Of a DNA stretch of 44,404 nt, positions 8,955 through 24,035 are shown in pieces. Every line of letters begins with the position of its first letter. Within the stretch, counting starts at the first letter, position 1. The position numbers and the translations under genes are program-made. The notes beneath the pieces were generated by a model that was not told the origin of the DNA, made no database searches, and worked only from the letters and a program-made list of their open reading frames with translations. The stretch comes from Deltaproteobacteria bacterium (GTDB taxonomy: Bacteria; Desulfobacterota_D; UBA1144; Nemesobacterales; Nemesobacteraceae). Location of the stretch: NCBI GenBank assembly GCA_029262295.1, contig JAJCZR010000010.1, positions 1 through 44,404 of the forward strand, given 5' to 3'.

Positions 8955-9436
8955 ACAATCGGGGCCCCAACATTATCTATTTTTTGCTGGATTTTCATTA
9001 CTGCGTCAATTAAAGCTTCAGGCCTTGGAGGACATCCGCCCACATAAACATCTACTGGTAAAAATTCGTCTATTCCCTGCACAACTGCATAGCTGTCAAA
9101 AGGGCCGCCTCCGCAAGTGCATGAACCCATTGCAATTACCCATTTTGGCTCGGGCATCTGCTCATAAATTCTTCTGCATACAGAAGCCATCTTATATGTG
9201 ATTGTTCCCGAAACTATCATAAGATCAGCCTGACGTGGTGAAAACCTTGCAGCTTCAGCGCCAAACCTTGCAATATCAAACCTTGATGAGAAAACACCCA
9301 TCATCTCAATGGCACAACATGCTGTTCCAAAAGGCATAGGCCAAAGGCTGTTTTTTCTTCCCCAGTTTGCAAGCTCTGAGACTTTGGTGGTTAAAAAACC
9401 ATCTCCACCCAGAAGTGATCCGACATTTACTCCCAT
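8951..9436 (-). CDS. nuoB: NADH-quinone oxidoreductase subunit B
   Basis: This 161-residue subunit carries iron-sulfur cluster N2, the last electron carrier before quinone. The four ligands are visible: the paired Cys40-Cys41 in [12 protein letters not shown], Cys106 in [11 protein letters not shown], and Cys135 in [31 protein letters not shown] is also typical. It overlaps nuoA by 10 bases and nuoC by 4. Confidence 0.95.
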
Positions 9437-9786
9437 TCAAGTGCTCCTTTTTTTAGTACGTAAAAATATCCACCTACAACAATCAATAAAAATGCTAATA
9501 TTTCGATAAGTGCTAGTATGCCAAGATCCTTGAATACTACAGCCCAAACAATCAGGAATACAGATTCAATATCAAAAAGAATGAACAAAGCCCCAATAAG
9601 GTAGTATCTGAGTGAGAATTTCTCTCTTGCATCTCCAGTTGGAAACATTCCAGACTCATAGGGAGTAAGTTTTCTCCAGGTTCCCTCTCTTTTTGGACCG
9701 AGAAGATAAGACACGGTCAGCAAGGCTGCTGCAAGCCCCGTACCCATAATAATTATTAGTAAAATCGGGATATATTGTTCAAGCAC
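9427..9786 (-). CDS. nuoA: NADH-quinone oxidoreductase subunit A
   Basis: This 119-residue membrane subunit of complex I has three predicted helices. The conserved loop [20 protein letters not shown] and the following [20 protein letters not shown] are characteristic. The start is a GTG at 9784-9786 preceded only by a weak TAGG. A candidate promoter places the transcript start within a few bases of this codon, so the mRNA may be nearly leaderless. It is first in the nuoABCD operon and diverges from the sirtuin gene. Confidence 0.92.
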
Positions 9787-9822
9787 AGCCTATAAGATTA
9801 GTAGCCAGAGTATAATTGTCAA
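9787..9822 (-). promoter_or_regulatory. Candidate sigma-70 promoter of nuoABCD
   Basis: On the minus strand TTGACA (9822-9817) is followed after 16 bases by TAATCT (9800-9795). Transcription would begin around 9788, next to the GTG start of nuoA. The -35 is perfect and the -10 is poor. Confidence 0.35.
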
Positions 9823-9882
9823 GAATGTTGTTAACTAAATTTCTGTGTATTATTATCTGGCCCGACTTTAAGGAATAATTTC

Positions 9883-10626
9883 ATGGAAAATGACATAAAT
9901 AAAGCCTACGAACTGATAAATGAGGCTTCTATTATTACAGTTTTAACAGGTGCCGGAATATCTTCTGAAAGCGGCGTGCCAATCTTCAGGGGAAGTGAAG
10001 GCCTGTGGAATAACTACCGCCCTGAAGAGCTTGCTACTCCAAAAGCATTTTTTGAAAACCCGGGAATTGTGTGGGAATGGTATGACTGGCGAAGATCAGT
10101 AATGAAAAAGGCTGAACCAAATCATGGGCACTATGCTCTTAGTGAACTTGAAAGACAAAAGGACAAATTCACTCTTATCACTCAAAATGTGGACGGGCTT
10201 CACCAACTTGCAGGCTCAGACAATATTATAGAGATGCATGGCAACCTTTGGGAAATAAGATGTACAAAATGTAACAACCTTGAAAAAAACTATCAGGTAC
10301 CAATACCTGAACTTCCTCCCAAGTGCAGCAAGTGCAGTGAAATTATGAGGCCAAACATAGTCTGGTTTGGAGAAATTATACCTATGCAAAAGATAGACAG
10401 GTGTATTTTTGCAATCGAAGAGTCCGATCTTTTCATGATTATTGGCACATCAGGGCTTGTTGAACCGGCAGCATCTTTTGGATTTGTGGCTAAAGAGCAT
10501 AATAAAACCGTAATTGAAATTAATTTGGATGAAACTCCTGGCACAGGACTTTATGACCTCAGTATCAAAGCAAAATCAGGAGAAGTCTTACCACTCTTGG
10601 TAGACTCGGGCAATACTTTGAACTAG
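9883..10626 (+). CDS. cobB: Sirtuin-type NAD-dependent protein deacylase
   Basis: This 247-residue enzyme removes acyl groups from protein lysines using NAD. It has the NAD-binding GAGISSESGVPIFRG (residues 23-37), TQNVDGLHQLAG (100-111), catalytic His119, and a Cys4 zinc site (C127, C130, C148, C151). Tyr67 and Arg70 form the YxxR motif that, in class III sirtuins such as SIRT5 and E. coli CobB, recognises succinyl or malonyl groups. Desuccinylase/demalonylase activity is therefore likely. An AAGGAA site precedes the ATG. It is divergent from nuoA, and the broken GH18 gene follows 11 bp later. Confidence 0.92.
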   Translation: MENDINKAYELINEASIITVLTGAGISSESGVPIFRGSEGLWNNYRPEELATPKAFFENPGIVWEWYDWRRSVMKKAEPNHGHYALSELERQKDKFTLITQNVDGLHQLAGSDNIIEMHGNLWEIRCTKCNNLEKNYQVPIPELPPKCSKCSEIMRPNIVWFGEIIPMQKIDRCIFAIEESDLFMIIGTSGLVEPAASFGFVAKEHNKTVIEINLDETPGTGLYDLSIKAKSGEVLPLLVDSGNTLN

Positions 10627-10637
10627 TAGAGTAAGTT

Positions 10638-11755
10638 ATGATGAAAGTTTTGATTAAATTCGCTCTGATTATTTTTTTATCTTCATCATTTTTTTTAAAT
10701 GCTTCTTTTTCTTTAGATAAACATCACTCAAATCATATTTCTAAGCATAAAACAGAGGAACCAAAAACTGAAGTAGGTTATGACTTGCATAATAATATTG
10801 TTAGCACTAGACCTGTAAATATTGATCCAGAATGCAAATTAAATAAAAAAGTTTATGGATGGCATCCATACTGGTATGGAACTTCATATAAAAGTTACGA
10901 CTATAATCTTCTATCCAGAATTTCATACTTCTCGTTAAAAGTAGATCCTAAAACCGGAAATTTTGAAGATATTCACTTTTGGAAAACCACTCCGCTAATA
11001 GATATGGCAAAGTCGGGCGGAACTAGGATTGACCTTACAATCACAAATTTTGGAGCAAAAAATAATGCAGAGTTCCTGCAAAGCAAAAAAGCCCAATCAA
11101 AACTGATTAAGAATACTATAAAGCTTCTTAAACTCAGAGGTGCAGACGGGGTTTGTATTGATTTTGAATCGGTTCCAGGAAGCATGAGAGATGAATTTAG
11201 TAGTTTTATAAACAAATTTTCAAAAGAGATGAAGGGAAAACTTCCCGAGGCAACTTTATCTCTAGCCCTTTATGCTGTGGATTGGCACAATGTGTTCAAC
11301 ATTAAGGAAATTAATCCCGCTGTAGATCAATTTATCCTTATGGCTTATGATTATCACACTGCATCAAGTAAGAAAGCAGGGCCTGTTGCGCCAATAAACA
11401 GTGGAAAAATCTGGTCTCCCTTTAATGTTAAAAAATCGATTGAAAACTATCTTAAAAAAGGTGTTCCGGCATCAAAATTATTGCTATCAGTTCCATATTA
11501 TGGGCAAGAGTGGAAAACTGCTAAATCCAAATTTCCATCAAAGAACATAGATCACATAACAGCAAAACCCCGGTAATTATAAATAAAAAAGAAAGTAAAA
11601 ATTACCAAACGTGGTTTGATGATAAAAAAAGCCTTGATGCTAAATACAAATTAGTAAACGAGCTAGGTCTTGGTGGGATTGGAATCTTCGCTCTTGGCTA
11701 TGATAATGGACACGAAGACCTCTGGGAAGCTATTGCAGACAACTTCTGTGAGTAG
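10638..11755 (+). pseudogene. Secreted glycosyl hydrolase family 18 protein, frameshifted near the 3' end
   Basis: The first frame (10638-11576, 312 aa) has a signal peptide (about residues 1-25) and a GH18 barrel. KVYGWHPYWYGTSYKSYDYN is strand 1 and GADGVCIDFE (168-177) is the DxxDxDxE-type active site with catalytic Glu177. It ends early at ...HITAKPR. The missing end continues in another frame from about 11573 to the TAG at 11753-11755 (TWFDDKKSLDAKYKLVNELG, then GGIGIFALGYDNGHEDLWEA), which is the last barrel strand. Adding one base to the AAAACCCC run at 11564-11571 restores a protein of about 372 residues. This is either a real lesion or a sequencing error. The likely substrate is peptidoglycan or chitin-type glycan. 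Confidence 0.8.
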
Positions 11756-11761
11756 CAAACA

Positions 11762-11850
11762 CCAATCTGGCACAATAAGCAAAAATAAGTGGCGCGACAA
11801 TCGTTGCATCAGATTCAGTAATCAATCTTAGTTCCAACTCCACATTTTTC
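11762..11850 (-). pseudogene. Relic of the 3' end of a second deoxyhypusine synthase-like gene
   Basis: Read on the minus strand this stretch gives ELRLITESDATIVAPLIFAY. The intact DHS-like gene at 16569-17546 ends KFIIESDATIVAPLIFAYLL. Nucleotides 11775-11820 also match 16582-16627 closely, whereas sequence further upstream (above about 11830) does not. After the matching part the relic reads into a different tail without the normal ...DW end. It lies between the broken GH18 gene and the promoter of the RTX gene. No start or complete domain remains. Confidence 0.75.
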
Positions 11851-11872
11851 GATTTTATAAATTTATTGTTAG

Positions 11873-11901
11873 TTGACAATTTAATTATAGTTTTGTAATA
11901 A
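11873..11901 (+). promoter_or_regulatory. Sigma-70-like promoter of the RTX-repeat gene
   Basis: A perfect -35 TTGACA (11873-11878), a 17-bp spacer and TAATAA (11896-11901) lie about 40 bp upstream of the ATG. The strong AAGGGGG ribosome-binding site at 11926-11932 completes a well-formed leader. Confidence 0.6.
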
Positions 11902-11939
11902 TTAATTATAGTTGTTTAAAAATTTAAGGGGGATTCATT

Positions 11940-13427
11940 ATGAATAATTTAAGACTTATATTCAGATTTAAACTATTTTTTCTCACCGTTTTATTCTTTA
12001 CATTAGGATCAATAAATTCTATTTCTCAGGTAATTAAGCCATCCGGAGAATCAGATAGACCATCAAGCCAGCTTGTCCTTTGGTATGATCAGGATATTGA
12101 TCTTAGTGGAAGAACAAGCGTGATTCAGGTTACCAATACAAGCCAAACTGATTCAATTGTTATCCATGTCCAGATTTTTTCTAACGATCCTGGTGCTGCT
12201 TGTCTTGAAAGTGATTTTGTTGACATATTAACACCAAGTGACACACACACCTACAATTTTTCAAATATTTTTCTTAATGATGGATCACCTTCTATTTTTC
12301 CTGAAGGAACTTTTGATAATTCCAAAGGATTCGTTGTAATTACCCCTGTTGCAGGCATTGCAGATCTTTCAGCAGTTTCGTTTCAGCACTTAACTGGAAA
12401 CACAGTTGTATTTGAAAGTAATTCTTCACCACTAAGTACTAGGGCCTTTAAGATTAATTCAATGGGAAGGGATGCTGTAAATTTTACCGACGGTGAAGTG
12501 GCACCAGATGGAACTGTGCTTGATGGTATTAATAATGGTTTCGTTTTAATTCAACCGGAAGAAGTCGTTTTTAATATCAATAACTTTGATTTCTCATTTG
12601 GTGGAACAAATTTTTTTGGCACAGTGGATGTTATTGGAATTTCTTTTCGTGATTCTTATTCAGATCCTGGTTTAGTAGGTTATCTAGCACAACCTATTTT
12701 TAACCTTGAGATTGACCCATTCTTATTTGATTTTGAGGAAGACCCTGCTTCTTGCCCCTCAAGATTTCCAGGATGTTTTATGAATATCGGTATAAGTGAA
12801 CAATTTCCAGGATCTAATTTATTATTAAGTGAAGAAAACCTTTGTGATCCTATTACTCTTCCAAATCTTCCAACTGATCCCACAAGAGTTATAGGCTGGT
12901 CTATAATATTTGTGTCTGATTATGAAGAATTTGATAATTTTATTGGACTATATACATCTAACTATAATCAGACAAGCAGTTTTGGCGGAGGGACGGTTAA
13001 TCTATCTTTTGGAGGAGCAGACTGGATGTTTGCTAAAGGCGATGAAACAATAGTTGAAAGACCTGCATCAAGCCCTTGCGGAACAGAAGGTGCAATAATT
13101 GGAACTCCCGGAGATGATGTTTTAAATGGAACTGACGGAAATGATATTATTATTGGTTTAGGCGGCAATGATACGATCAATGGTTTAAAAGGTGATGATT
13201 GTATCGATGCAGGAAGTGGTAATGACACTGTGTTTGGAAATAAAGGAGATGATAACATTTTTGGTGGGGATGGTGACGATACTCTCGATGGTGGTAAGCA
13301 GAATGATGTGATTAACGGGAATGATGGAGATGATGAAATTAACGGTGGGAACGGTACTGACAATGTGAATGGAGGAAACGGTACTGATTCATGTGTAAAT
13401 TCTGAGACGACTGTTAACTGTGAATAA
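11940..13427 (+). CDS. Secreted protein with C-terminal RTX calcium-binding repeats
   Basis: This is a 495-residue protein with an N-terminal signal peptide (about residues 1-30; hydrophobic LFFLTVLFFTLGSINSIS). A middle region (30-380) resembles no family I know; it has many beta-prone stretches and paired Cys (PASCPSRFPGCF). From about residue 387 there are some ten RTX nonapeptide-type repeats, for example GTPGDDVLNGTDGNDIIIG and GGNDTINGLKGDDCIDAG, ending in a small Cys-containing tail. RTX repeats bind calcium and fold outside the cell. An N-terminal signal peptide points to Sec export rather than the type I route of classical RTX proteins. Strong promoter, ribosome-binding site and terminator suggest high expression as a single gene. 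Confidence 0.85.
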   Translation: MNNLRLIFRFKLFFLTVLFFTLGSINSISQVIKPSGESDRPSSQLVLWYDQDIDLSGRTSVIQVTNTSQTDSIVIHVQIFSNDPGAACLESDFVDILTPSDTHTYNFSNIFLNDGSPSIFPEGTFDNSKGFVVITPVAGIADLSAVSFQHLTGNTVVFESNSSPLSTRAFKINSMGRDAVNFTDGEVAPDGTVLDGINNGFVLIQPEEVVFNINNFDFSFGGTNFFGTVDVIGISFRDSYSDPGLVGYLAQPIFNLEIDPFLFDFEEDPASCPSRFPGCFMNIGISEQFPGSNLLLSEENLCDPITLPNLPTDPTRVIGWSIIFVSDYEEFDNFIGLYTSNYNQTSSFGGGTVNLSFGGADWMFAKGDETIVERPASSPCGTEGAIIGTPGDDVLNGTDGNDIIIGLGGNDTINGLKGDDCIDAGSGNDTVFGNKGDDNIFGGDGDDTLDGGKQNDVINGNDGDDEINGGNGTDNVNGGNGTDSCVNSETTVNCE

Positions 13428-13441
13428 AACATATATACTCA

Positions 13442-13472
13442 GGGGCAGTCTTAATGACTGCCCTATTTTTTT
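13442..13472 (+). terminator. Intrinsic terminator after the RTX gene
   Basis: The stem GGGCAGTC (13443-13450) pairs with GACTGCCC (13456-13463) around a 5-base loop and is followed by ATTTTTTT. This is a textbook rho-independent terminator 14 bp after the stop. Confidence 0.9.
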
Positions 13473-13573
13473 ATTCCAACTGTAATGTCAATTTCTCATT
13501 CCATAGAGATTTCCCCAAAATATTTTGCTGAGTTACAATAAACTTCTAACTAAATCATCAAATAAAAATCATA

Positions 13574-14032
13574 ATGTTTCTGAAGAATTTTATAAACTTT
13601 CTATTCTCAAATCGAAAAAATATAGATTTTAATCCTATAAGAAAAGATGTTCATAGGATAGATATTCAAGAATATGTTTATTTTAATGTCTATTGGAAAG
13701 TCTTAAAAATTGGCAAAGGCCCAGCTGCCACATTAAACATACATAATAAAGAAATCCTTAAATTTGACTGTTTTGGTAAAGATGATGGACACTTTCACGT
13801 CTCCCCAAACTACAACAAGAGAATATTTTTCGAAGAGAATTCAGCACGTGAACAGATTAATAGAACATCCTCTGAGCTAAAAAACAATTTAAACAAGTAT
13901 TTGGATATGAACAATGACAAGAAAGTTGGGGAAATAGAAATTAATAATAACAATTTAGAATTAGCCGTTGATGAAATGCAGGAAAAAATGATCCGCTTTT
14001 TAGAAACTGTTCCCGAGATTCGGGGAATTTGA
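13574..14032 (+). CDS. Hypothetical protein, 152 aa
   Basis: I do not recognise this protein. It has no signal peptide or membrane segment. An aromatic, strand-rich N-terminal half (IDIQEYVYFNVYWKVLKIGK, then LKFDCFGKDDGHFHV) is followed by a charged, helix-prone C-terminal half (about residues 90-145) that could form a coiled coil. There is no clear ribosome-binding site before the ATG. It stands alone between the RTX terminator and the cupin gene. Coding is supported by length and balanced composition only. Confidence 0.6.
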   Translation: MFLKNFINFLFSNRKNIDFNPIRKDVHRIDIQEYVYFNVYWKVLKIGKGPAATLNIHNKEILKFDCFGKDDGHFHVSPNYNKRIFFEENSAREQINRTSSELKNNLNKYLDMNNDKKVGEIEINNNNLELAVDEMQEKMIRFLETVPEIRGI

Positions 14033-14145
14033 AAAATTAAAATATAATACGTCAGATACTAAATGAAATTTGCTAAGTACAAATAAGTTATAATAAAATG
14101 TAGTAGTTATTCTGAATTTCTCCAAGTTACCAAAGGGGGCAACCA

Positions 14146-14493
14146 TTGGATCTTTTCAAGTTATTAAAAGACATTGAATTTAAGGATGGAGAGAACGGAC
14201 ATGCACAAGTACTTTACGCAGATTTCGATAGCAGGGTACTCCGTTTTGCATTACAGAAAGGACAAAGAGTGAGTCACCTAAATCCTCATTCACCGGCACA
14301 AATAATAGTTGTAAGAGGTAAAGGTGTTTTTGAGGGGAATAATGGTTATCAAACAGCCGCCTCAAATTCATTACTTCTTTTTTCAAAGGGAGAAGAATTT
14401 TCAGTGAGAGCAGAAAGTGAAGAAATTGTTTTTCTTGCCCTTTTTCATGGTGCAGAAAGAGCCGATCCTGAACATGCTCCGATTAGATCATAG
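14146..14493 (+). CDS. Small single-domain cupin protein
   Basis: This 115-residue protein has a cupin-like pattern: GQRVSHLNPHSPAQIIVVRG (motif 1, with two His but Gln in place of the usual Glu) and a second motif around AASNSLLLFSKGEEF. Such small cupins bind a metal or small ligand; the substrate cannot be predicted. The start is a TTG at 14146, chosen because AAAGGGGG (14132-14139) lies just 6 bases before it and no ATG follows in frame nearby. A TATAAT at 14089-14094 may be its -10. It could sense a metabolite for the reductase gene downstream, but that is a guess. Confidence 0.7.
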   Translation: MDLFKLLKDIEFKDGENGHAQVLYADFDSRVLRFALQKGQRVSHLNPHSPAQIIVVRGKGVFEGNNGYQTAASNSLLLFSKGEEFSVRAESEEIVFLALFHGAERADPEHAPIRS

Positions 14494-14708
14494 ATTATTT
14501 TTAAAAAGTTATAGTCAACACAGAAAAATTATATTAATAAAAACTTTATCATTTGTTAATAAGACCTTTCAAACATAACTCTATTTTAGACATGTTGTTT
14601 TAATCTATAATGTGTTCTGATAATCTAACTATATTGGACAATAAGAAAGTTATGTCATTAAAAATAATTTCGTTTATAGCATAGCTATTAAAAAGTGAGT
14701 GAATATTT

Positions 14709-16433
14709 ATGTCAGCAAAAAAGGACAAATCAAAAGTCGAGATAATTAAAGAAAATAGCAAAAATCTAAGAGGTTCAATAGCAGACCAACTGGCTGAAAA
14801 CAATGACAGTTTTGATCGTGAGGGATATGAAATTCTCAAATTCCATGGGATATACCAACAGGATGACAGAGATGTACGGCAGGAGCGCAAAAAGGAAGGG
14901 AAAGGGAAAAAATATATTTTCATGTTGAGAACAAAAAATTCCGGTGGTGGAGAGTTAACTGCCCGCCAGTGGCTTGCCCATGATGAAATTGCCGACAAAT
15001 ATGGAAATGGCACTTTTAGGATTACAACCAGACAGGATATTCAGTTTCATGGTGTTGGAAAAGAAAACCTCAAAAATACAATTAAATATTTGAATAGAAA
15101 TTTGATTCCGACATATGGTGCATGTGGAGATTCAAACAGGAACACAGTTGCCGATCCAATTTCCAATATAAGAAAAGGATCCAAGTTCGACTCACAAAAA
15201 TGGGCAAAACTCATTTCCGAACACTTTAATTATAAAAGCAATGCCTACTATGACATCTGGCTCGATGGGGAACGATACCTAGAAACCAATCCCAACAAAG
15301 ATGAAACAGAGAATATATATGGAAATGCATATCTTCCAAGAAAATTCAAAATAGGGATAGCACAACCAATTGATAATAGCGTGGATGTGCACACAAATGA
15401 TATTGGTTTAGTGGCAATAATTAACGATAAACTTAATGGTTTTAATGTACTTGTTGGTGGAGGTCTGGGAAGTCATCACCGCCAGCCCAAAACTTACCCT
15501 CGTCATGCTACACCACTTGCTTTTGTTACAGAAGACAAACTGTTAGATGTTGTAACAAGGATAGTGGAATTTCAACGTGATAATGGAGATAGAAAAGATA
15601 GAAAGCATGCAAGGCTTAAATACATAGTTGAAGAATGGGGAATTGATAAAGTAAGAAATGAAATAGAAAAAAGGCTGGGTTACAAACTGGATCCACCTTT
15701 AGAAGAAATAGAGCTTAAGCAGCCGACTGATCACTACGGTTGGCATAAGCAAAATAGTCCAGGACTTTTGTATCTCGGGCTTTTTATTGAAAATGGAAGA
15801 ATTAAAGATACTGAGGATACAAAACTAAAATCTGGATTAAGAGATATAATCACAAAATACAATTTAGGAGTACGTTTAAGTCCACTGCAAGATATAATTC
15901 TTACAAATGTAAAAGAGGAAAATAAAGAAAATATTAATTCCATGCTCTCTGAATATGGAATTAAAACTCATGAAGCTTATTCAATTTTACGGCTCAACTC
16001 AATGTCCTGCCCTGCTCTTCCCACATGTGGATTGGCACTTGCAGAATCTGAAAGATATATGCCGTCAATATTAAAGGAGCTCGAAAAAAGGGGTTATGGG
16101 AAAGAAGATATTAAAATTCGAATGAGTGGCTGCCCTAATGCATGTTCCAGACCCACAACTTCAGAAATAGGGATAATGGGCACTTCTCCCGGCAAATATA
16201 ATGTCTATCTGGGTGGGGATTATGAAGGCACAAGGCTCAATACTATTTATGAAGAACTAGTAGAGGACAATGAACTTCCAACTTTGATTGGTAATCTAAT
16301 TGATATATTTAGAGAAAATAAAGTAAGAAAGGAAAACTTTGGGGATTTTTGTAAAAGAGTTGGTAATGAAAAACTGAAGTTGCTTGTAAAAAACAACGCT
16401 TCATCAAATTCTTCAGCACCAATGAACAGTTAA
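14709..16433 (+). CDS. Siroheme sulfite/nitrite reductase (assimilatory hemoprotein)
   Basis: This 574-residue enzyme carries out six-electron reduction of sulfite (or nitrite) with a siroheme coupled to a 4Fe-4S cluster. The cluster ligands are visible as Cys434 and Cys440 (SCPALPTC) and Cys475 and Cys479 (SGCPNAC). TFRITTRQDIQFHGVGKENL and GACGDSNRNTVADP are the substrate-side arginine motifs. The stretch PGKYNVYLGGDYEGTRLNTI matches the CysI/ferredoxin sulfite reductase type better than NirA. No flavoprotein (cysJ) or cysH lies next to it, so ferredoxin is the likely donor. A TATAAT at 14606-14611 in the 215-bp upstream gap is a possible -10. The gene runs convergent to the DHS-like gene. 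Confidence 0.88.
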   Translation: MSAKKDKSKVEIIKENSKNLRGSIADQLAENNDSFDREGYEILKFHGIYQQDDRDVRQERKKEGKGKKYIFMLRTKNSGGGELTARQWLAHDEIADKYGNGTFRITTRQDIQFHGVGKENLKNTIKYLNRNLIPTYGACGDSNRNTVADPISNIRKGSKFDSQKWAKLISEHFNYKSNAYYDIWLDGERYLETNPNKDETENIYGNAYLPRKFKIGIAQPIDNSVDVHTNDIGLVAIINDKLNGFNVLVGGGLGSHHRQPKTYPRHATPLAFVTEDKLLDVVTRIVEFQRDNGDRKDRKHARLKYIVEEWGIDKVRNEIEKRLGYKLDPPLEEIELKQPTDHYGWHKQNSPGLLYLGLFIENGRIKDTEDTKLKSGLRDIITKYNLGVRLSPLQDIILTNVKEENKENINSMLSEYGIKTHEAYSILRLNSMSCPALPTCGLALAESERYMPSILKELEKRGYGKEDIKIRMSGCPNACSRPTTSEIGIMGTSPGKYNVYLGGDYEGTRLNTIYEELVEDNELPTLIGNLIDIFRENKVRKENFGDFCKRVGNEKLKLLVKNNASSNSSAPMNS

Positions 16434-16568
16434 AAACAATTAATTATATTAAACTCAACAAAGCTTGTTTTAAAAATACGTGAAAAAAGTTAACCCTAAT
16501 ATTTATGTCAACGAATTTTGAAAGGATGACAATTCTCAAACGCTTTAATCAGAAAAATATTTTTTTTC

Positions 16569-17546
16569 TTACCAATCCAGCAAATAAGCAAAAATAAGTG
16601 GCGCAACAATTGTAGCATCAGACTCAATAATAAATTTTGGTGTGTCTATACTGAGCTTGCCCCATGTGATTTTTTCATTGGGAACCGCACCCGAATATGA
16701 TCCATAGCTCGTTGTTGAATCCGATATCTGACAGAAATAGCTCCAGAGCGGAGTATCCAGTATTTTCAAATCCTGAATTAACATAGGAACAACACATATT
16801 GGAAAATCGCCTGCAATGCCCCCTCCGATCTGAAAAAAACCAACTCCTTCATCCCCCGCATTTTCTCTATACCAGTTTGAAAGATATATAAGGTATTCAA
16901 TTCCCGACTTCATTGTTGATGGTTGGAGTTCTTCGTTAATACAGTGTGCAGCAAAAATATTTCCTAATGTTGAATCTTCCCATCCAGGCACAACAATAGG
17001 AAGATTTTTTTCAGCCGCCGCAAGTACCCAACTGTCTTTTGGATCAATTTCATAAAACTCTTTCAAAACACCCGATAATAAAAGTTCATACATATATTCA
17101 TGAGGAAATTTACGCTCATTATTTTCTTCCGAGCTTTTCCATATTTTATAAATAAGTCTTTCTATTCTTCTAAATGCTTCTTCTTCCGGAATGCATGTGT
17201 CGGTAACACGATTAAGCCCTCTTTTCATTAGTTCCAATTCGTCTTTAGGAGTAAGATCACGATAATTAGGAACTCTTTCATAATAAGAATGTGCTACAAG
17301 GTTCATTATATCTTCTTCAAGATTAGCGGCAGTGCATGATATAATATGCACTTTATCCTTGCGTATCATCTCAGCAAGTGACTTTCCAAGCTCAGCAGTG
17401 CTCATAGCCCCGGCAAGAGTAATCATCATCTTCTTACCTTCCTCAAGATGTTTTTCATAGGCTCTTGCGGCATCAACAACAGTTGCAGAGTTAAAATGCT
17501 TAAAGTGCTCAGTGATAAACTTTTTTATGTTCCCGTTTTTACCCAT
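16569..17546 (-). CDS. Deoxyhypusine synthase family protein
   Basis: This 325-residue protein has the DHS fold with NAD-binding elements. LAGAMSTAELGKSLAEMIRK and VVPGWEDSTLGNIFAAHC are family hallmarks. NEKITWGKLSI holds Lys297, which aligns with the catalytic lysine that carries the aminobutyl group in true DHS. Bacteria lack the eIF5A substrate; characterised bacterial DHS-like enzymes make homospermidine or related polyamines, which is the best guess here. The ATG at 17544-17546 has the conserved leader shared with the relic at 20.6 kb. It is divergent from UPF0182 and convergent with the reductase gene. Partial copies of its two ends lie elsewhere in the window. Confidence 0.9.
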   Translation of the reverse strand: MGKNGNIKKFITEHFKHFNSATVVDAARAYEKHLEEGKKMMITLAGAMSTAELGKSLAEMIRKDKVHIISCTAANLEEDIMNLVAHSYYERVPNYRDLTPKDELELMKRGLNRVTDTCIPEEEAFRRIERLIYKIWKSSEENNERKFPHEYMYELLLSGVLKEFYEIDPKDSWVLAAAEKNLPIVVPGWEDSTLGNIFAAHCINEELQPSTMKSGIEYLIYLSNWYRENAGDEGVGFFQIGGGIAGDFPICVVPMLIQDLKILDTPLWSYFCQISDSTTSYGSYSGAVPNEKITWGKLSIDTPKFIIESDATIVAPLIFAYLLDW

Positions 17547-17748
17547 AATTTAAGAGAATACATTATCACACGTAAACGTAATCTTTCAAAAAACCTATCC
17601 ATAATTAATCTCTACTTTTTTATTGATACATTCAATATGTGCTGCCAAAGAATACTTTATTAATTACGAAAAGGTTTATTTCTGTTATGCTTATAGAAGA
17701 ATAATTGACGATACTTATGAAAACCGTAACAATTTCCATCTAACATTT

Positions 17749-20529
17749 ATGAGAAAAAAACATATATTTTTTGCAGTTTTATTTTTTATTTTCTTTATTT
17801 TACCCATCTCAGTTGTACTGCTGACAGACTGGCTTTGGTTTAAACAAACAGGTTATGGATCTGTTTTTTCCACAATAGTTTTAACAAAACTAATGTTAGG
17901 TGTCGGAGTAGGTTTAATTGCATTTTTTATTCTATTTCTGAATTTAAAAATAGCGAGCAATCTCACAAAGGGCAAACCTGTTTATATAAACCTTGAACCC
18001 GGAAGACAATCAATTAATCTTGGCGGGCATATTGGCAAGATTGTACTACTTTTCTCTGTTTTTATCGGCTTTTCTGCAGGACTCACTCAATCGGGCAACT
18101 GGGACACCATACTAATGTATCTTAATAGTACGGCTTTTGGTATCTTGGATCCTGTTTTCAATAGGGATATTTCTTTTTACTTTTTCACACTGCCATTTTT
18201 GAAAATGTCACTTGGTTTTCTAAGCTGGATTGTTGTTATCTCTTTGGGCGGATCATTTTTAATTTATTTCACTCGGGGTGCACTTACCTCTCTTCTAAGA
18301 AAATTCAGGATAATGCGCCGTAGTGATGATATATTGGCAATTGGAAAAAATACAGAAAAGAGAATCAAAGTTCATTTGTTACTTCTTTTTTTCTTTTTGT
18401 TTCTCATACTTGCAGCTAAAACTTATTTTATAAAAATACCAGAACTTTTATATTCAACTACAGGCCCTTTTACAGGGGCAAGCTATACTGATATTTATGC
18501 TAATCTTCCGATATTAAAGTTATCAAGTATTGCATTACTTTTTCTTGCTATTGTTTTTCTGATAAATATTTTCAAGGAAAGCAAAAGACTACTGTTCGCT
18601 GCTTTTGGCCTTTATGTTCTTATAGCAATTATAGCTTTGTGGCTCTACCCTTCTTTACTTCAAAATTTTGTTGTTGAACCTAATGAACTTGTTAAGGAAA
18701 CTCCATACATAAAACATAATATTGCAGGCACCCAAAAGGCATTTAAGCTCAATAACATTAGTGAATACAATCTTCAGGGAGAGACTACTTCACTTACAAT
18801 GTCTGATATTGAGAACAATGAAACAACGATTAAAAATATCCGGTTGTGGGATAGAGAGCCCTTACTTGACACTTTCGGCCAACTTCAGGAAATACGTACA
18901 TACTACGACTTTGTTTCAATTGACAATGACCGTTACCAGATAGATGGTGAATATAGACAAACGCTTCTCTCTGCCAGAGAACTGAATCCTGCATCACTTC
19001 CTCAAAAAAACTTTATTAACGAACGGCTGACATTCACACATGGTTATGGTGCGACTGTTACACCTGTAAATGAGGTAACAGATGAAGGACTGCCTGTGCT
19101 GTTTGTGAAAGACCTACCACCTGCTTCAACTAAAGAGTCCCTCGAAATTAGAAGACCCGAAATATACTATGGAGAGCTCACCAACAATTATGTTATAGCA
19201 AATACAGTTGCTAAAGAATTTGATTATCCCTCAGGTGAGAAAAACGTTTATAACGATTATGAAGGGAGTGGCGGGGTTGAGATAGGATCGTTCTTTAAGA
19301 AAGTGCTAATGTCGCTCAGGTTTAAGGAAACAAAGCTGTTTTTATCAGACGACATTACCTCTGAAAGCAGGATTATGTATTATCGAAATATTAAAGAAAG
19401 GGTTAAAAAGGTATTCCCTTTTCTCGAACTGGATGATGATCCATATATGGTAATTGCAGAAGATGGATCCCTTCAATGGATTCAGGATGCTTACACTGTA
19501 AGCGACCGTTATCCATATTCCGAAAGAATCCGAAGAAGAAACCCTATTAATTACATTCGCAACTCGGTAAAAGTTGTCGTTTCGGCTTATGATGGCAATA
19601 TGAAGTTTTACATTTCAGACCCTTCCGATCCTGTTATTAAGACTTATGAAAAAATATTTGAGGGCTCTTTTCTACCAATAAGTAAAATGCCAGAGGACCT
19701 TAAAAGTCACATTCGTTATCCCGAAGATATCTTCATTTATCAGACTGCTCTTTACTCCATATACCACATGGAAGAACCTCAGATTTTCTATAACAAAGAA
19801 GATAAGTGGCAGATTCCGGTTATTTCAGAAGGAAGCACCGACCCGATGATCAGGCATATAATAATGAAACTACCTAATGAAGAAAAAGAAGAATATATAT
19901 TGATGATACCTTTTACTCCTCAGGGAAAAGATAATATGGCTGCATGGATGGTTGCAAGATCTGATGGTGAAAACTACGGGAGTATGGCAGTTTACAGATT
20001 CCCAAAACAGTCACTCGTTTACGGCCCTCAACAGATAATCAACAGAATTAATCAGAATCCTGAAATCTCAAGGCAGATATCTCTTTGGGATCAGCGAGGA
20101 TCTGAAGTAAACCAGGGTTCACTTCTTGTTATTCCAATAGAAGAATCTCTTTTGTATGTTAGGCCTTTATATATTCGATCTCAAGGGGGGAAGATACCTG
20201 AGCTAAAAAGAGTGATAATTGCTTATGAAAACACAATAGTAATGGAAGAAACTCTGGATAAGGCGATCAGGAAAATTTTTGGAATGAGAGTAAGTGATGA
20301 GAAAATAAAACCAGAAGAAACAGAATTAAAAGAGAAGCCCCAACAACTAAGAATTCCAGAAGATGACATTCTCTCAAACGCTCGCATGCACTATGAAACT
20401 GCCATACAGGCACAAAAGGATGGCAACTGGGCCCTTTACGGAGAAGAGATTAAAAAACTTGGCAGGATTTTAAACAGTATTAAACAAGAGAAAGATCAAA
20501 TAGAAGAGGAAATTCAGCAGCCGCAATAA
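17749..20529 (+). CDS. UPF0182 family large membrane protein
   Basis: This 926-residue protein has about seven membrane segments in its N-terminal third, including the family motif TDWLWFKQTGYGSVF. A large extracytoplasmic domain follows with RPEIYYGELTNNYVI, GYGATVTPVNEVTDEGLPVL and VYGPQQIINRINQNPEISRQ, all typical of UPF0182 (COG1615). Function is unknown across the family. I chose the ATG at 17749 because the family usually starts with a short basic stretch just before the first helix. The open frame extends to a TTG at 17623 but that extra segment is not family-like. No good ribosome-binding site is seen. A charged C-terminal tail (about 60 residues) is helical. Confidence 0.88.
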   Translation: MRKKHIFFAVLFFIFFILPISVVLLTDWLWFKQTGYGSVFSTIVLTKLMLGVGVGLIAFFILFLNLKIASNLTKGKPVYINLEPGRQSINLGGHIGKIVLLFSVFIGFSAGLTQSGNWDTILMYLNSTAFGILDPVFNRDISFYFFTLPFLKMSLGFLSWIVVISLGGSFLIYFTRGALTSLLRKFRIMRRSDDILAIGKNTEKRIKVHLLLLFFFLFLILAAKTYFIKIPELLYSTTGPFTGASYTDIYANLPILKLSSIALLFLAIVFLINIFKESKRLLFAAFGLYVLIAIIALWLYPSLLQNFVVEPNELVKETPYIKHNIAGTQKAFKLNNISEYNLQGETTSLTMSDIENNETTIKNIRLWDREPLLDTFGQLQEIRTYYDFVSIDNDRYQIDGEYRQTLLSARELNPASLPQKNFINERLTFTHGYGATVTPVNEVTDEGLPVLFVKDLPPASTKESLEIRRPEIYYGELTNNYVIANTVAKEFDYPSGEKNVYNDYEGSGGVEIGSFFKKVLMSLRFKETKLFLSDDITSESRIMYYRNIKERVKKVFPFLELDDDPYMVIAEDGSLQWIQDAYTVSDRYPYSERIRRRNPINYIRNSVKVVVSAYDGNMKFYISDPSDPVIKTYEKIFEGSFLPISKMPEDLKSHIRYPEDIFIYQTALYSIYHMEEPQIFYNKEDKWQIPVISEGSTDPMIRHIIMKLPNEEKEEYILMIPFTPQGKDNMAAWMVARSDGENYGSMAVYRFPKQSLVYGPQQIINRINQNPEISRQISLWDQRGSEVNQGSLLVIPIEESLLYVRPLYIRSQGGKIPELKRVIIAYENTIVMEETLDKAIRKIFGMRVSDEKIKPEETELKEKPQQLRIPEDDILSNARMHYETAIQAQKDGNWALYGEEIKKLGRILNSIKQEKDQIEEEIQQPQ

Positions 20530-20537
20530 TCATTTTC

Positions 20538-20620
20538 TTACCTAACATAATGTTCTGTAATAAACTTTTTTATGTTTCCAGTTTTTCTCATAATTTAGGA
20601 GATAAATTATTACATGTAAG
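20538..20620 (-). pseudogene. Relic of the 5' end of a second deoxyhypusine synthase-like gene
   Basis: An ATG at 20589-20591 starts MRKTGNIKKFITEHYVR and then stops (TAA, 20538-20540). The intact DHS-like protein begins MGKNGNIKKFITEHFKHF: twelve of the first fifteen residues agree. The roughly 30 bases upstream of the ATG also match the intact gene's leader, including ATAAT and a purine-rich site that reads CTCCTAAATT here. It therefore preserves promoter region plus fifteen codons of a second copy. It sits just behind UPF0182, in the same orientation as the intact gene. Confidence 0.8.
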
Positions 20621-20640
20621 TCAGTTCTTTGAAAGTCAAA

Positions 20641-21558
20641 TTAAAGATAAATATTTGGGTCTTGGTCATTTTTGAAACCAATATTATAACAATTTTCTAA
20701 TTTATAATACTCTATTAATCTATATAAATTAGATCGAAAGCTGCCAATAAAAATTTTGGATTCTCTTGCAATCTCAATTTCAGTTAAAAGATTAATAATC
20801 TCAACCTTTTTTTGGGATTTTTTCATCTGGTTAAAATCAGAATTTTTATACCCTTTCTTTGAATCAGAAATTAAAGTGATAAATTCGTAATCTAAAAATT
20901 TGTTTTTCAGCTCAGTATATACACTAAAATCATCACTCATAACAAAAACAGTTTTGATTGAAGAATTTATTGATTTTAGTTTGTTCATATAATCTTCTAC
21001 AGGATAAAAATTATCTTCACCAGTTTTTATCTTGTCACCCCTTCGTATATGAAATACCGCATAGTCATGATCGATGGAAATTTTTGCATTTTTAATATCT
21101 GATAAAATTTCAGGCTTAATTTTCCAAATATTTTTAAGAATTCTATTAATTGATGATATAAATTCGTCTTTGTTTTGAAGTCTTTGATGATTATTAAATT
21201 CTCGAACCTTATGAAAACCTTCAAAAATAGTTTCTGTATCTTTTTTTAAGCTAAAATTTAATAATAAGAAAACAAGTTTTCTTCTACTAATTGCCAACTT
21301 TGAAACGCTAACAAATCTACTAATAAATTGAAGGGTTTTTACAAGAATTTTATGTTTTAGTGCTTGTGCATCATTGCTTTGCAGAGCAATAAAATAATCA
21401 GTCCATCCATCTTTATAATTATAGTTCCAAAATGTTGTATCAAGTACTAGACTATAGTCATTTTTTTTGCAATAATTAATGGCATATAACAAATTATTTA
21501 TCTCTGATCCGAATCCTCTGGACGTTAGGAACCATGTCAACTTTTTATCTTTTTTCAT
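20641..21558 (-). CDS. GT23-like (alpha-1,6-fucosyltransferase fold) glycosyltransferase
   Basis: This is a 305-residue protein without membrane segments. HIRRGDK (170-176) followed by FYPVEDYMNKL strongly resembles the FUT8/NodZ signature HVRRTDK...FHPIEEYM. VFVMSDD (204-210) and KIFIGSFRSNLYRLIEY (268-284) match the other two conserved peptides of the fucosyltransferase superfamily. The donor would be GDP-fucose, the acceptor a surface or secreted glycan or a Nod-like oligosaccharide. No other sugar genes are nearby. The N-terminal Rossmann half (WFLTSRGFGSEINNLLYAIN) is also consistent. Codon use is especially AT-rich, so recent acquisition is possible. Confidence 0.75.
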   Translation of the reverse strand: MKKDKKLTWFLTSRGFGSEINNLLYAINYCKKNDYSLVLDTTFWNYNYKDGWTDYFIALQSNDAQALKHKILVKTLQFISRFVSVSKLAISRRKLVFLLLNFSLKKDTETIFEGFHKVREFNNHQRLQNKDEFISSINRILKNIWKIKPEILSDIKNAKISIDHDYAVFHIRRGDKIKTGEDNFYPVEDYMNKLKSINSSIKTVFVMSDDFSVYTELKNKFLDYEFITLISDSKKGYKNSDFNQMKKSQKKVEIINLLTEIEIARESKIFIGSFRSNLYRLIEYYKLENCYNIGFKNDQDPNIYL

Positions 21559-21609
21559 ACTAATAACAATTAATATTCACGAGTTTAGTCATAGATATTT
21601 AATAAGAGT

Positions 21610-22551
21610 TTATGCTAATTTCAAAGCAACTTTAATTGCTTCTATCATACTTGAAGGATTAGCAACTCCTTTCCATGCAATATCAAATGCTGTTCCGTGG
21701 TCGGGAGATGTTCTGATTATTGGTAATCCAATTGTTACATTCACTCCGGTATCAAATAAAAGCATCTTAAATGGAATCAACCCCTGATCATGATACATAG
21801 ATATGACAAGATCCCATTTTCCCTGAAGGGCATTATAGAATAGTGTGTCGGCCGGTAAAGGGCCTTCAACATTAATCCCTTCACCTTTTGCTTTATCTAT
21901 AGCTGGAATAATTTCTTCAATTTCCTCTTTGCCAAATGCACCTGCCTCACCTGCATGAGGGTTAAGACCACAAACAACAATTTTAGGATCAGGAATTCCA
22001 AACTTGCCTTTTAGTTCCGAGTTACAAATAGAAATGTATTTATATACTCTTTCTTTTGTAATAAGTTTTGGTACTTCAGATAGAGCAACATGAATTGTCA
22101 TAAGTGCAACTCGAAACTTCCCACCCTCAAAAAGCATAATTGCATTATCTGATTCGGTAAGATCCTGAAGCATTTCAGTGTGCCCCGGATATTTTGAGCC
22201 TGCGAGATGAATAGACTCTTTACTTATTGGAGCAGTAACGATAGCATCAATCTCTTTATCCATTATCATCTCAACTGCCTTTTCGATACAATCAAGAGAA
22301 GCTTGGCCTGCTTTTTCCGAAACCACTTCAGGGGTCAAGTCTTTTTCTGCAAAATTTGTAGGATCAATAATGTTTAACGAATTATTACTACCAAATTCTT
22401 TGTTTGCCTTTTTAAGAACATCTTCACTTCCAATAAGTATAAAGTTAGAAAGCTCAGATATAGATGAGTCAGATATAGCTTTAATTGCTACTTCGGGTCC
22501 AATTCCATTTGGATCACCCATTGTTATTCCGATCTTCAGTTTATTCGGCAT
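21610..22551 (-). CDS. pdxA: 4-hydroxythreonine-4-phosphate dehydrogenase
   Basis: This 313-residue enzyme of pyridoxal 5'-phosphate synthesis (DXP-dependent route) oxidises 4-phosphohydroxythreonine with NAD. GITMGDPNGIGPEVAIKA opens the protein. Metal-binding histidines lie in SKYPGHTEMLQDL, GLNPHAGEAGAFGKEE and MYHDQGLIPFKMLLFD, and PIIRTSPDHGTAFDIAWKG closes the site. Length is typical. It lies 51 bp upstream of the GT23-like gene on the same strand; the two need not be functionally related. Confidence 0.93.
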   Translation of the reverse strand: MPNKLKIGITMGDPNGIGPEVAIKAISDSSISELSNFILIGSEDVLKKANKEFGSNNSLNIIDPTNFAEKDLTPEVVSEKAGQASLDCIEKAVEMIMDKEIDAIVTAPISKESIHLAGSKYPGHTEMLQDLTESDNAIMLFEGGKFRVALMTIHVALSEVPKLITKERVYKYISICNSELKGKFGIPDPKIVVCGLNPHAGEAGAFGKEEIEEIIPAIDKAKGEGINVEGPLPADTLFYNALQGKWDLVISMYHDQGLIPFKMLLFDTGVNVTIGLPIIRTSPDHGTAFDIAWKGVANPSSMIEAIKVALKLA

Positions 22552-22613
22552 AGCAAATTATGATAATTGAAAATAAGTAGTTGTACATGATCAAGAATTT
22601 GTTTTTTAGTAAT

Positions 22614-22783
22614 GTCATCCCGTACTTGCTTGTACTGAGCTTGCCGAATGTGATGCGGGATCCAGGATATTGACTAGAATTATAAATACAAATCAGAATT
22701 CACTAGACTATTACAATACTAATAATTGCTGATTAATTATCCTTTTCCACCATTCTGGATTCCGGCTCGAAGGCCGGAATGAC
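22614..22783. repeat. BIME-like pair of REP palindromes
   Basis: A plus unit (22614-22666, GTCATCCCG...GCGGGATCCAGG) faces a minus unit (22755-22783) across about 90 bp. The right unit forms a perfect 8-bp stem, ATTCCGGC (22759-22766) with GCCGGAAT (22773-22780). The whole block resembles 1558-1725 in layout and in the flank TTTTCCACCATTCTGGATTCC. It fills the 240-bp gap between tatD and pdxA, where the right-hand hairpin could also stop tatD transcription. Confidence 0.75.
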
Positions 22784-22792
22784 TGGCAGATG

Positions 22793-23575
22793 CTAAATAA
22801 GAGAAGTCTTATCTTTTGGTATCTTATGAAAAAGAGTGCATACATTTTCAAGTATCTGATCATTAAGTTCATCAAGACTTAAATCTTTTATTTCTGCGAG
22901 AAGAGTCGCAACATATTCAACATAACAGGGTTCATTATCTTTTCCTCTTTTTGGAACCGGTGCAAGATATGGCGAATCTGTTTCATAAAGAACTCTATCA
23001 ATTGGTGATTTCTTTGCAACATCCCTAATTTCCTCAGCCCTCTTGAAAGTCAATATTCCTGAGAATGAAATAAAAAAGCCAAGATCAAGATATTTCTTAG
23101 CATAGTCCCAGTTACTTGAAAAACAGTGAATAACTCCGGGATTTTCATTAAGATTTTTTGTTTTTAAAATTTCAATAAGATCATCATCTGCATCCCTTAT
23201 ATGAATTACAAATGGTAGAGAATGCTTTGTGGCAAGATAAATATGGGCTTCACAGGACCTTATTTGCTCTTCTTTGGTAGAGTTCATGTAGTGATAATCA
23301 AGCCCTGTCTCACCTAATCCAACAACTTTCGGATCATCAAGCAGTTTCTCAAACTCGCTCATTACCTCGTCTGTATAACTTGATGCAGTATGAGGATGAA
23401 TCCCTATTGAAGAATAAATCCCATTGTACTTCTTTGTTAGCTCAACAGTATTAATTGAAGACTCTAAACCTGTACCAATCGAGATTATTTTACCAACTCC
23501 AACCTCACTTGCTCTTTCAACTGCTGCTTCAGGGTCTTCAAGGCTTAGAATATGTGCATGGGAATCAATCAGCAT
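22793..23575 (-). CDS. tatD: TatD family metal-dependent deoxyribonuclease
   Basis: This 260-residue hydrolase has a TIM barrel with a two-metal site: MLIDSHAHI (the N-terminal HxH), VVGLGETGLDYHY, LPFVIHIRDADDD, PGVIHCFSS, and VLYETDSPYLAPVPKRGK. Members degrade DNA 3'-5' and act in repair of oxidative damage. Length is normal. Its start is 1 bp after the nrdR stop, so it is probably the last gene of a glyA-nrdR-tatD operon. Confidence 0.92.
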   Translation of the reverse strand: MLIDSHAHILSLEDPEAAVERASEVGVGKIISIGTGLESSINTVELTKKYNGIYSSIGIHPHTASSYTDEVMSEFEKLLDDPKVVGLGETGLDYHYMNSTKEEQIRSCEAHIYLATKHSLPFVIHIRDADDDLIEILKTKNLNENPGVIHCFSSNWDYAKKYLDLGFFISFSGILTFKRAEEIRDVAKKSPIDRVLYETDSPYLAPVPKRGKDNEPCYVEYVATLLAEIKDLSLDELNDQILENVCTLFHKIPKDKTSLI

Positions 23576-23576
23576 A

Positions 23577-24035
23577 CTACTTTTTTTCCTTCAGAAGATC
23601 AGTAAGCTCATCCATAAATTGATTTACATCTTTAAATGATCTGTATACTGAAGCAAATCTCACATATGCAACTTCGTCAATTTCGTAAAGTTTTTTTATT
23701 AACCTTTCACCTATTTCTTCACTTTGCACTTCCCTTTCGCCCCTTTCCTGAAATTCGCGTTCAAGTTTAGTAACAAAGTCTTCAATCACATCAAAGCTTA
23801 TAGGCCTTTTCTCACATGCCCTGAGCATTCCGTTAATTATTTTGTTTCTGTCAAACTCTTCACGTCTTCCATCTTTCTTTACAACAAGAAACTCAACCTG
23901 CTCCACCCTTTCATAGGTTGTATATCTCTTTGTGCAATCGTTGCATTCCCTTCTTCTTCTTATAGAAGACCCATCACCACCTACTCTGGAATCTACAACT
24001 TTACTATCATTACTTGAACAAAATGGACACTTCAT
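23577..24035 (-). CDS. nrdR: Transcriptional repressor NrdR
   Basis: This 152-residue ATP/dATP-sensing repressor acts on ribonucleotide reductase genes. Zinc ligands C3, C6, C31 and C34 form the N-terminal ribbon ([17 protein letters not shown], then [19 protein letters not shown]), followed by the ATP-cone starting [20 protein letters not shown]. Its targets would be NrdR boxes near nrd genes, none of which are in this window. It lies between glyA and tatD on the same strand. Confidence 0.95.

Follow-up and report, generated by a model that had tools for sequence, protein, structure and literature searches.

Genes gained by bacterial genomes can concentrate in hotspots between core genes, many of which lack recognisable mobile elements (Oliveira et al. 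2017, PMC5635113). Homology-facilitated illegitimate recombination was shown in Escherichia coli conjugation (PMC3240628) and has been proposed for gene remnants in Vibrio T6SS gene arrays (PMC5361080). The term xenologous gene displacement in situ (PMC1274311, PMC9425974) describes a homologue of another lineage that takes the place of the resident gene.

We analysed a window of 44,404 nucleotides, the whole of the stretch of contig JAJCZR010000010.1 under study, in which two end relics of a deoxyhypusine-synthase-like (DHS-like) gene lie on either side of a block that carries an intact copy (Table 1). The locus resembles the core-gene hotspots in its conserved flanking core genes, the turnover of its cargo and the lack of recognised mobile-element genes, but we compare a handful of genomes across families of a sparsely sampled lineage, whereas the hotspots were described within one species. 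As in the Vibrio arrays and in E. coli, a new homologous module would have come in and left parts of an older gene beside it. There, however, homology anchors one side and the remnants are one-sided, whereas here the new copy is flanked by remnants on either side and we infer the mechanism. The likeness to xenologous displacement in situ is that a homologue of another lineage would hold the resident gene's place; the difference is that the resident's ends persist as relics and that several unrelated genes lie beside the new copy. Ordinary partial pseudogenes, e.g., an S41-protease relic at the same site in a relative (G013), also leave a gene end beside an intact paralogue, but in our case the two ends of the gene survive, separated by 8.7 kb. 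The event belongs to an ordinary class for which the general processes are known; its footprint is unusually clear.

Table 1. Features of the SIR2/pdxA region (window positions).
Feature	Position	Strand	Basis or remark
SIR2 gene	9883-10626	+	core gene
Whole accessory insertion	10627-21609		between SIR2 and pdxA; 10.98 kb
GH18 gene	10638-11576	+	frameshifted at about 11571; other frame runs to 11755
C relic	11761-11832	-	in-frame codons 304-321, then frameshifted tail
Block between the relics	11857-20524		RTX, DUF7700, cupin-like, sulfite reductase, intact DHS-like gene, UPF0182; ORFs, Pfam and NCBIfam
Promoter-like site upstream of RTX gene	11873-11902		11/12 match (promoter scan)
RTX-repeat protein gene	11940-13427	+	HemolysinCabind repeats (Pfam)
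DUF7700 protein gene	13574-14032	+	Pfam
Small protein gene, "cupin" of the sequence-only reading	14146-14493	+	without Pfam or NCBIfam match
Assimilatory sulfite reductase hemoprotein gene	14709-16433	+	NF010029, 692 bits (cut-off 457)
Intact DHS-like gene	16569-17546	-	PF01916, 325 aa; Pfam E 4e-43
Promoter-like site of intact DHS-like gene	17562-17589		TTGAAA-16-GATAAT
UPF0182 membrane protein gene	17746-20529	+	Pfam; stop codon inside relic DNA
Third relic piece	20525-20543	-	codons 36-42; overlaps UPF0182 stop codon
N relic	20551-20619	-	leader and codons 1-14
Promoter-like site in N relic	20606-20633	-	TTCAAA-16-AATAAT, TG before second hexamer; promoter scan
FUT8/GT23-like gene	20641-21558	-	about 25% GC
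pdxA gene	21610-22551	-	core gene

Gene content of the SIR2/pdxA junction

SIR2 and pdxA are convergent core genes that flank accessory DNA made up of GH18, the C relic, the block, the N relic and GT23. In five relatives (G016, G018, G020, G024, G027), no more than about 60 bp separate them. In the sister genus (G001, G010, G013), the gap is 2-3.6 kb and is filled by S41-protease genes: G010 has two in tandem, and G013 has one, its other being cut down to the final 140 codons (98.6% identical to the whole gene of G010). The gap of G015 is about 3.1 kb and holds a DUF11/HYR protein, and that of G002 is interrupted by contig ends. The junction is a gene-acquisition hotspot, with conserved core neighbours and variable content. 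The protease remnant of G013 shows that in relatives, too, truncation leaves relics at this site; the sister-genus gaps examined contain neither a DHS gene nor a DHS relic. The G010 gap (L112) has a low-complexity stretch (~1.8-2.2 kb).

Of the genes at the two edges of the insertion, GH18 was found in none of 12 relatives searched and GT23 in none of 57. The GH18 frameshift adjoins a CCCC run, and the other frame adds about 60 codons before its stop; this may be a pseudogene or an assembly error. The GC content of the FUT8/GT23-like gene is clearly below that of its surroundings, and with its absence from the relatives this gene is probably a separate foreign acquisition. Beyond pdxA, an intergenic repeat of about 190 bp (22600-22790, and again at 1632-1726) has ends that resemble imperfect inverted repeats; it has 24 matches in its own genome including itself, the others at 71-91% identity, and could be a MITE-like or palindromic intergenic family.

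The borders of the block can be placed closely. On the RTX side, the edge falls at about 11833-11856, past the end of the C relic and just before the RTX gene's promoter-like site. On the UPF0182 side, it falls at about 20524/20525 and is fixed within a few bases by the third relic piece, which overlaps the UPF0182 stop codon (20527-20529). The resulting size of about 8.69 kb agrees with the 8.7 kb read from the sequence alone. Both ends coincide with gene borders (the RTX promoter region and the UPF0182 stop), which we counted in favour of a displacement.

Two other genes of the block were searched for in relatives. For the sulfite reductase, G015 alone of 10 relatives yielded a close homologue, which has other neighbours on its contig, and UPF0182 was not found in any of the 57 relatives searched. 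The available flanks of the 80 closest DHS-like loci of other genomes (mostly Bacteroidota) contain no other gene of the block, no GH18 and no GT23. Judged by these 80 loci, the block matches no known linked module, and no candidate donor with the whole block was seen among them. Signs of mobility were also sought: the ORFs examined include no recognised integrase or transposase, the block has no notable inverted repeat from edge to edge, and the one tRNA, a tRNA-Asn, is distant and none lies near the block. A search of positions 9000-24000 gave no RNA family.

Two relics and one intact gene of the same family

In a BLAST of the window against itself, the only DHS-like matches outside the intact gene are the two relics. 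The C relic matches the 3' end of the gene (16571-16641) over 61 of 72 nt (84.7%, E 1.3e-14), and the N relic its 5' end and leader (17506-17575) over 57 of 70 nt (81.4%, E 8e-11). Their local alignment scores, 87 and 78 respectively, far exceed the maxima of 34 and 33 obtained in 300 dinucleotide shuffles. The sequence-only reading had placed two DHS-like end relics around the block, which these scores bear out, and had proposed aligning them to check the family: in its own genome and 25 relatives, each relic matches otherwise only the intact gene and its orthologue in G020, i.e., both belong to the same DHS-like family. The order and orientation of the relics are those expected from one DHS-like gene. 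With homology above chance and a complete reading frame missing, they are pseudogene relics.

One could still suspect chance similarity or an assembly artefact, because the relics are short and the source is a 2.2-Mb draft genome (98.8% complete) in 83 contigs. The shuffle controls and E-values exclude chance, and copies that differ by 15-19% within one contig do not come from a collapsed or duplicated repeat; we regard this explanation as extremely improbable.

The extents of the relics differ somewhat from those first described. The C relic had been given as about 20 codons on the minus strand; homology and strand hold, but the frame is kept over 18 codons (304-321, RLITESDATIVAPLIFAY), after which an extra base throws the tail out of frame, and the stop codon has been lost. 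For the N relic, described as a leader and 15 codons, we recovered the leader and codons 1-14 and, in addition, an overlooked third piece. The latter is colinear and matches at 17 of 19 positions, a value equalled by 1 of 3732 control 19-mers; an internal deletion of about 66 bp (about codons 15-35) separates it from the N relic. The promoter-like site of the N relic matches that of the intact gene in place and spacing, and it rests on this homology, since the counts of the promoter and terminator scan were no higher than in shuffles. It faces the UPF0182 3' end, which is encoded on the other strand, and might still drive an antisense transcript.

The intact gene is the only member of the DHS family in its genome (a single hit). 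Its protein passes the PF01916 cut-off over the full fold (148 bits vs 27, residues 18-321) and keeps the active-site lysine motif WGK (its ITWGKLS lines up with VSWGKIS of 8qzw, one of the solved DHS structures), but misses the NCBIfam equivalog cut-offs for true deoxyhypusine synthase (107.8 vs 434 bits) and homospermidine synthase (106.6 vs 450 bits). Judged by these profiles, the product is best described only as a DHS-like protein. In the protein tree, G020 and G024 are sister to it (support 100/99) inside a family dominated by Bacteroidota, and the G020 orthologue is 81% identical. This position suggests that the gene came into the lineage from the Bacteroidota-dominated group, or that there was a common origin. 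In G020 the gene lies among unrelated neighbours on one contig (C42), and SIR2/pdxA on another (C9). The literature search on Bacteroidota DHS-like proteins found nothing specific. A Bacteroidota-type DHS-like gene also occurs in a record titled Bifidobacterium breve MAG (L045), whose contig is probably mis-binned or mislabelled.

Divergence of the relics and origin of the two ends

The surviving relic sequence amounts to about 160 nt, and since some 32 codons are too few for a tree, we compared distances. Over the 32 alignable codons, the differences between the relics and the intact gene affect 10.5 of the 20 synonymous and 5.5 of the 76 nonsynonymous sites (Fisher p 7e-5; pS 0.52, pN 0.07). 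The relics thus bear the mark of past purifying selection. Over 96 positions, they are as close to G020, a relative at the level of the order (80/96), as to the intact gene (80/96), with 71/96 for relic-G024 and 72/96 for intact-G020. A gene inactivated soon after a local duplication is not expected to diverge mostly at synonymous sites. The excess of synonymous change, together with the equal distance to the intact gene and G020, indicates that the lost copy was a functional, long-diverged DHS-like homologue, and the relics do not appear to be a recent local duplicate.

These distances bear directly on the possibility that the ends of the intact gene were recently duplicated, e.g., by duplication of a repeat or attachment site by an integrating element. 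The ends do form direct repeats, and the leader of the N relic (about 45 bp) is closest to the local intact gene. Yet a divergence of 15-19% with a synonymous bias is far too high for a recent event, the examined ORFs showed no recognised integrase or transposase, a tRNA is lacking nearby, and an integrating element normally copies one end of its target gene, whereas here both are present. We consider this origin very unlikely. More generally, the synonymous divergence disfavours a recent duplication with decay of a tandem array; duplication and the decay of a tandem family had been put forward from the sequence alone.

Integration of a Campbell type, in which a circle with a DHS-like gene enters an old DHS-like gene, would also yield two homologous gene parts around new DNA. 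It predicts that the two edges carry hybrid genes and that a separate intact copy is missing from the middle; the gene order (old 5' part, UPF0182, intact gene, RTX to sulfite reductase set, old 3' part) does not fit this, and we regard such an origin as extremely improbable.

We think it probable that the block, together with its intact gene, took the place of the central part of an older DHS-like copy at the insertion hotspot. The sequence-only reading had listed among its options a second copy split by the block with loss of its middle. This is the best-supported option, as it fits the single family, the order, the orientation and the diverged functional copy; what had been missed is that the whole is nested in an 11-kb insertion between SIR2 and pdxA. 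The uninterrupted gene that this reading proposed to look for at a GH18/GT23 junction was seen in none of the relatives searched, all of them from outside the genus, which leaves its interpretation supported in part. On the simplest account, GH18, the older DHS-like gene and GT23 would have gathered first at the hotspot, with the older gene facing GH18 and lying behind GT23. DNA of 8.7 kb, with a diverged working homologue and five other genes, would then have split the older gene or replaced its central part, about codons 43-303, so that the junctions fall near codons 42 and 304. The incoming gene would have taken over the function while the ends of the older one decayed. Which copy was the newcomer is suggested by position alone.

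Entry may have been by illegitimate or homology-assisted recombination and not by a mobile element. Because the incoming DNA would have carried a homologue of its target, a joining that was homology-assisted but illegitimate is attractive. In its specific form, which combines one exchange with two illegitimate joins, the DNA would have been guided to the resident by the homologue that it carried, both joins would have fallen in the non-homologous flanks, and the resident's ends would have been left as bookends; we put this forward only tentatively, as a rather doubtful variant.

The displacement supposes that both ends stem from one copy, of which some 160 nt would be left, and that the block arrived in one piece. 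Two separate events, although unlikely, have a real chance of being the correct account: UPF0182 would have been added at the 5' side and the set from RTX through DUF7700 and cupin to sulfite reductase at the 3' side; each addition would have come with, or lain beside, a partial DHS copy of its own, in a decayed array of up to three copies. Indeed, the layout can also be read as two pairs of direct repeats around cassettes, one (17506-17575/20551-20619) bracketing UPF0182 and the other (16571-16641/11761-11832) the RTX to sulfite reductase set, and G013 has tandem paralogues, one of them truncated, at the same SIR2/pdxA site. The ends also differ somewhat in divergence: synonymous change relative to the intact gene is 6.5/7.2 in the N relic and 4/13.2 in the C relic (p 0.06), and the comparison with G020 shows the reverse (0.28 and 0.53), a pattern that could reflect two sources. 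Against this, the gene ends are exactly complementary and in order, which would need a coincidence, a recent local tandem array would lack near-saturated synonymous change, and both a further relic and a recognised mobile-element gene are absent.

Under the displacement that we favour, the relics would be its footprint, recording that two diverged DHS-like genes, both of them working, came together in a single genome, which then lost one. Beyond this case, the recognition of SIR2/pdxA as an insertion hotspot of the lineage helps the reading of other foreign genes found there.
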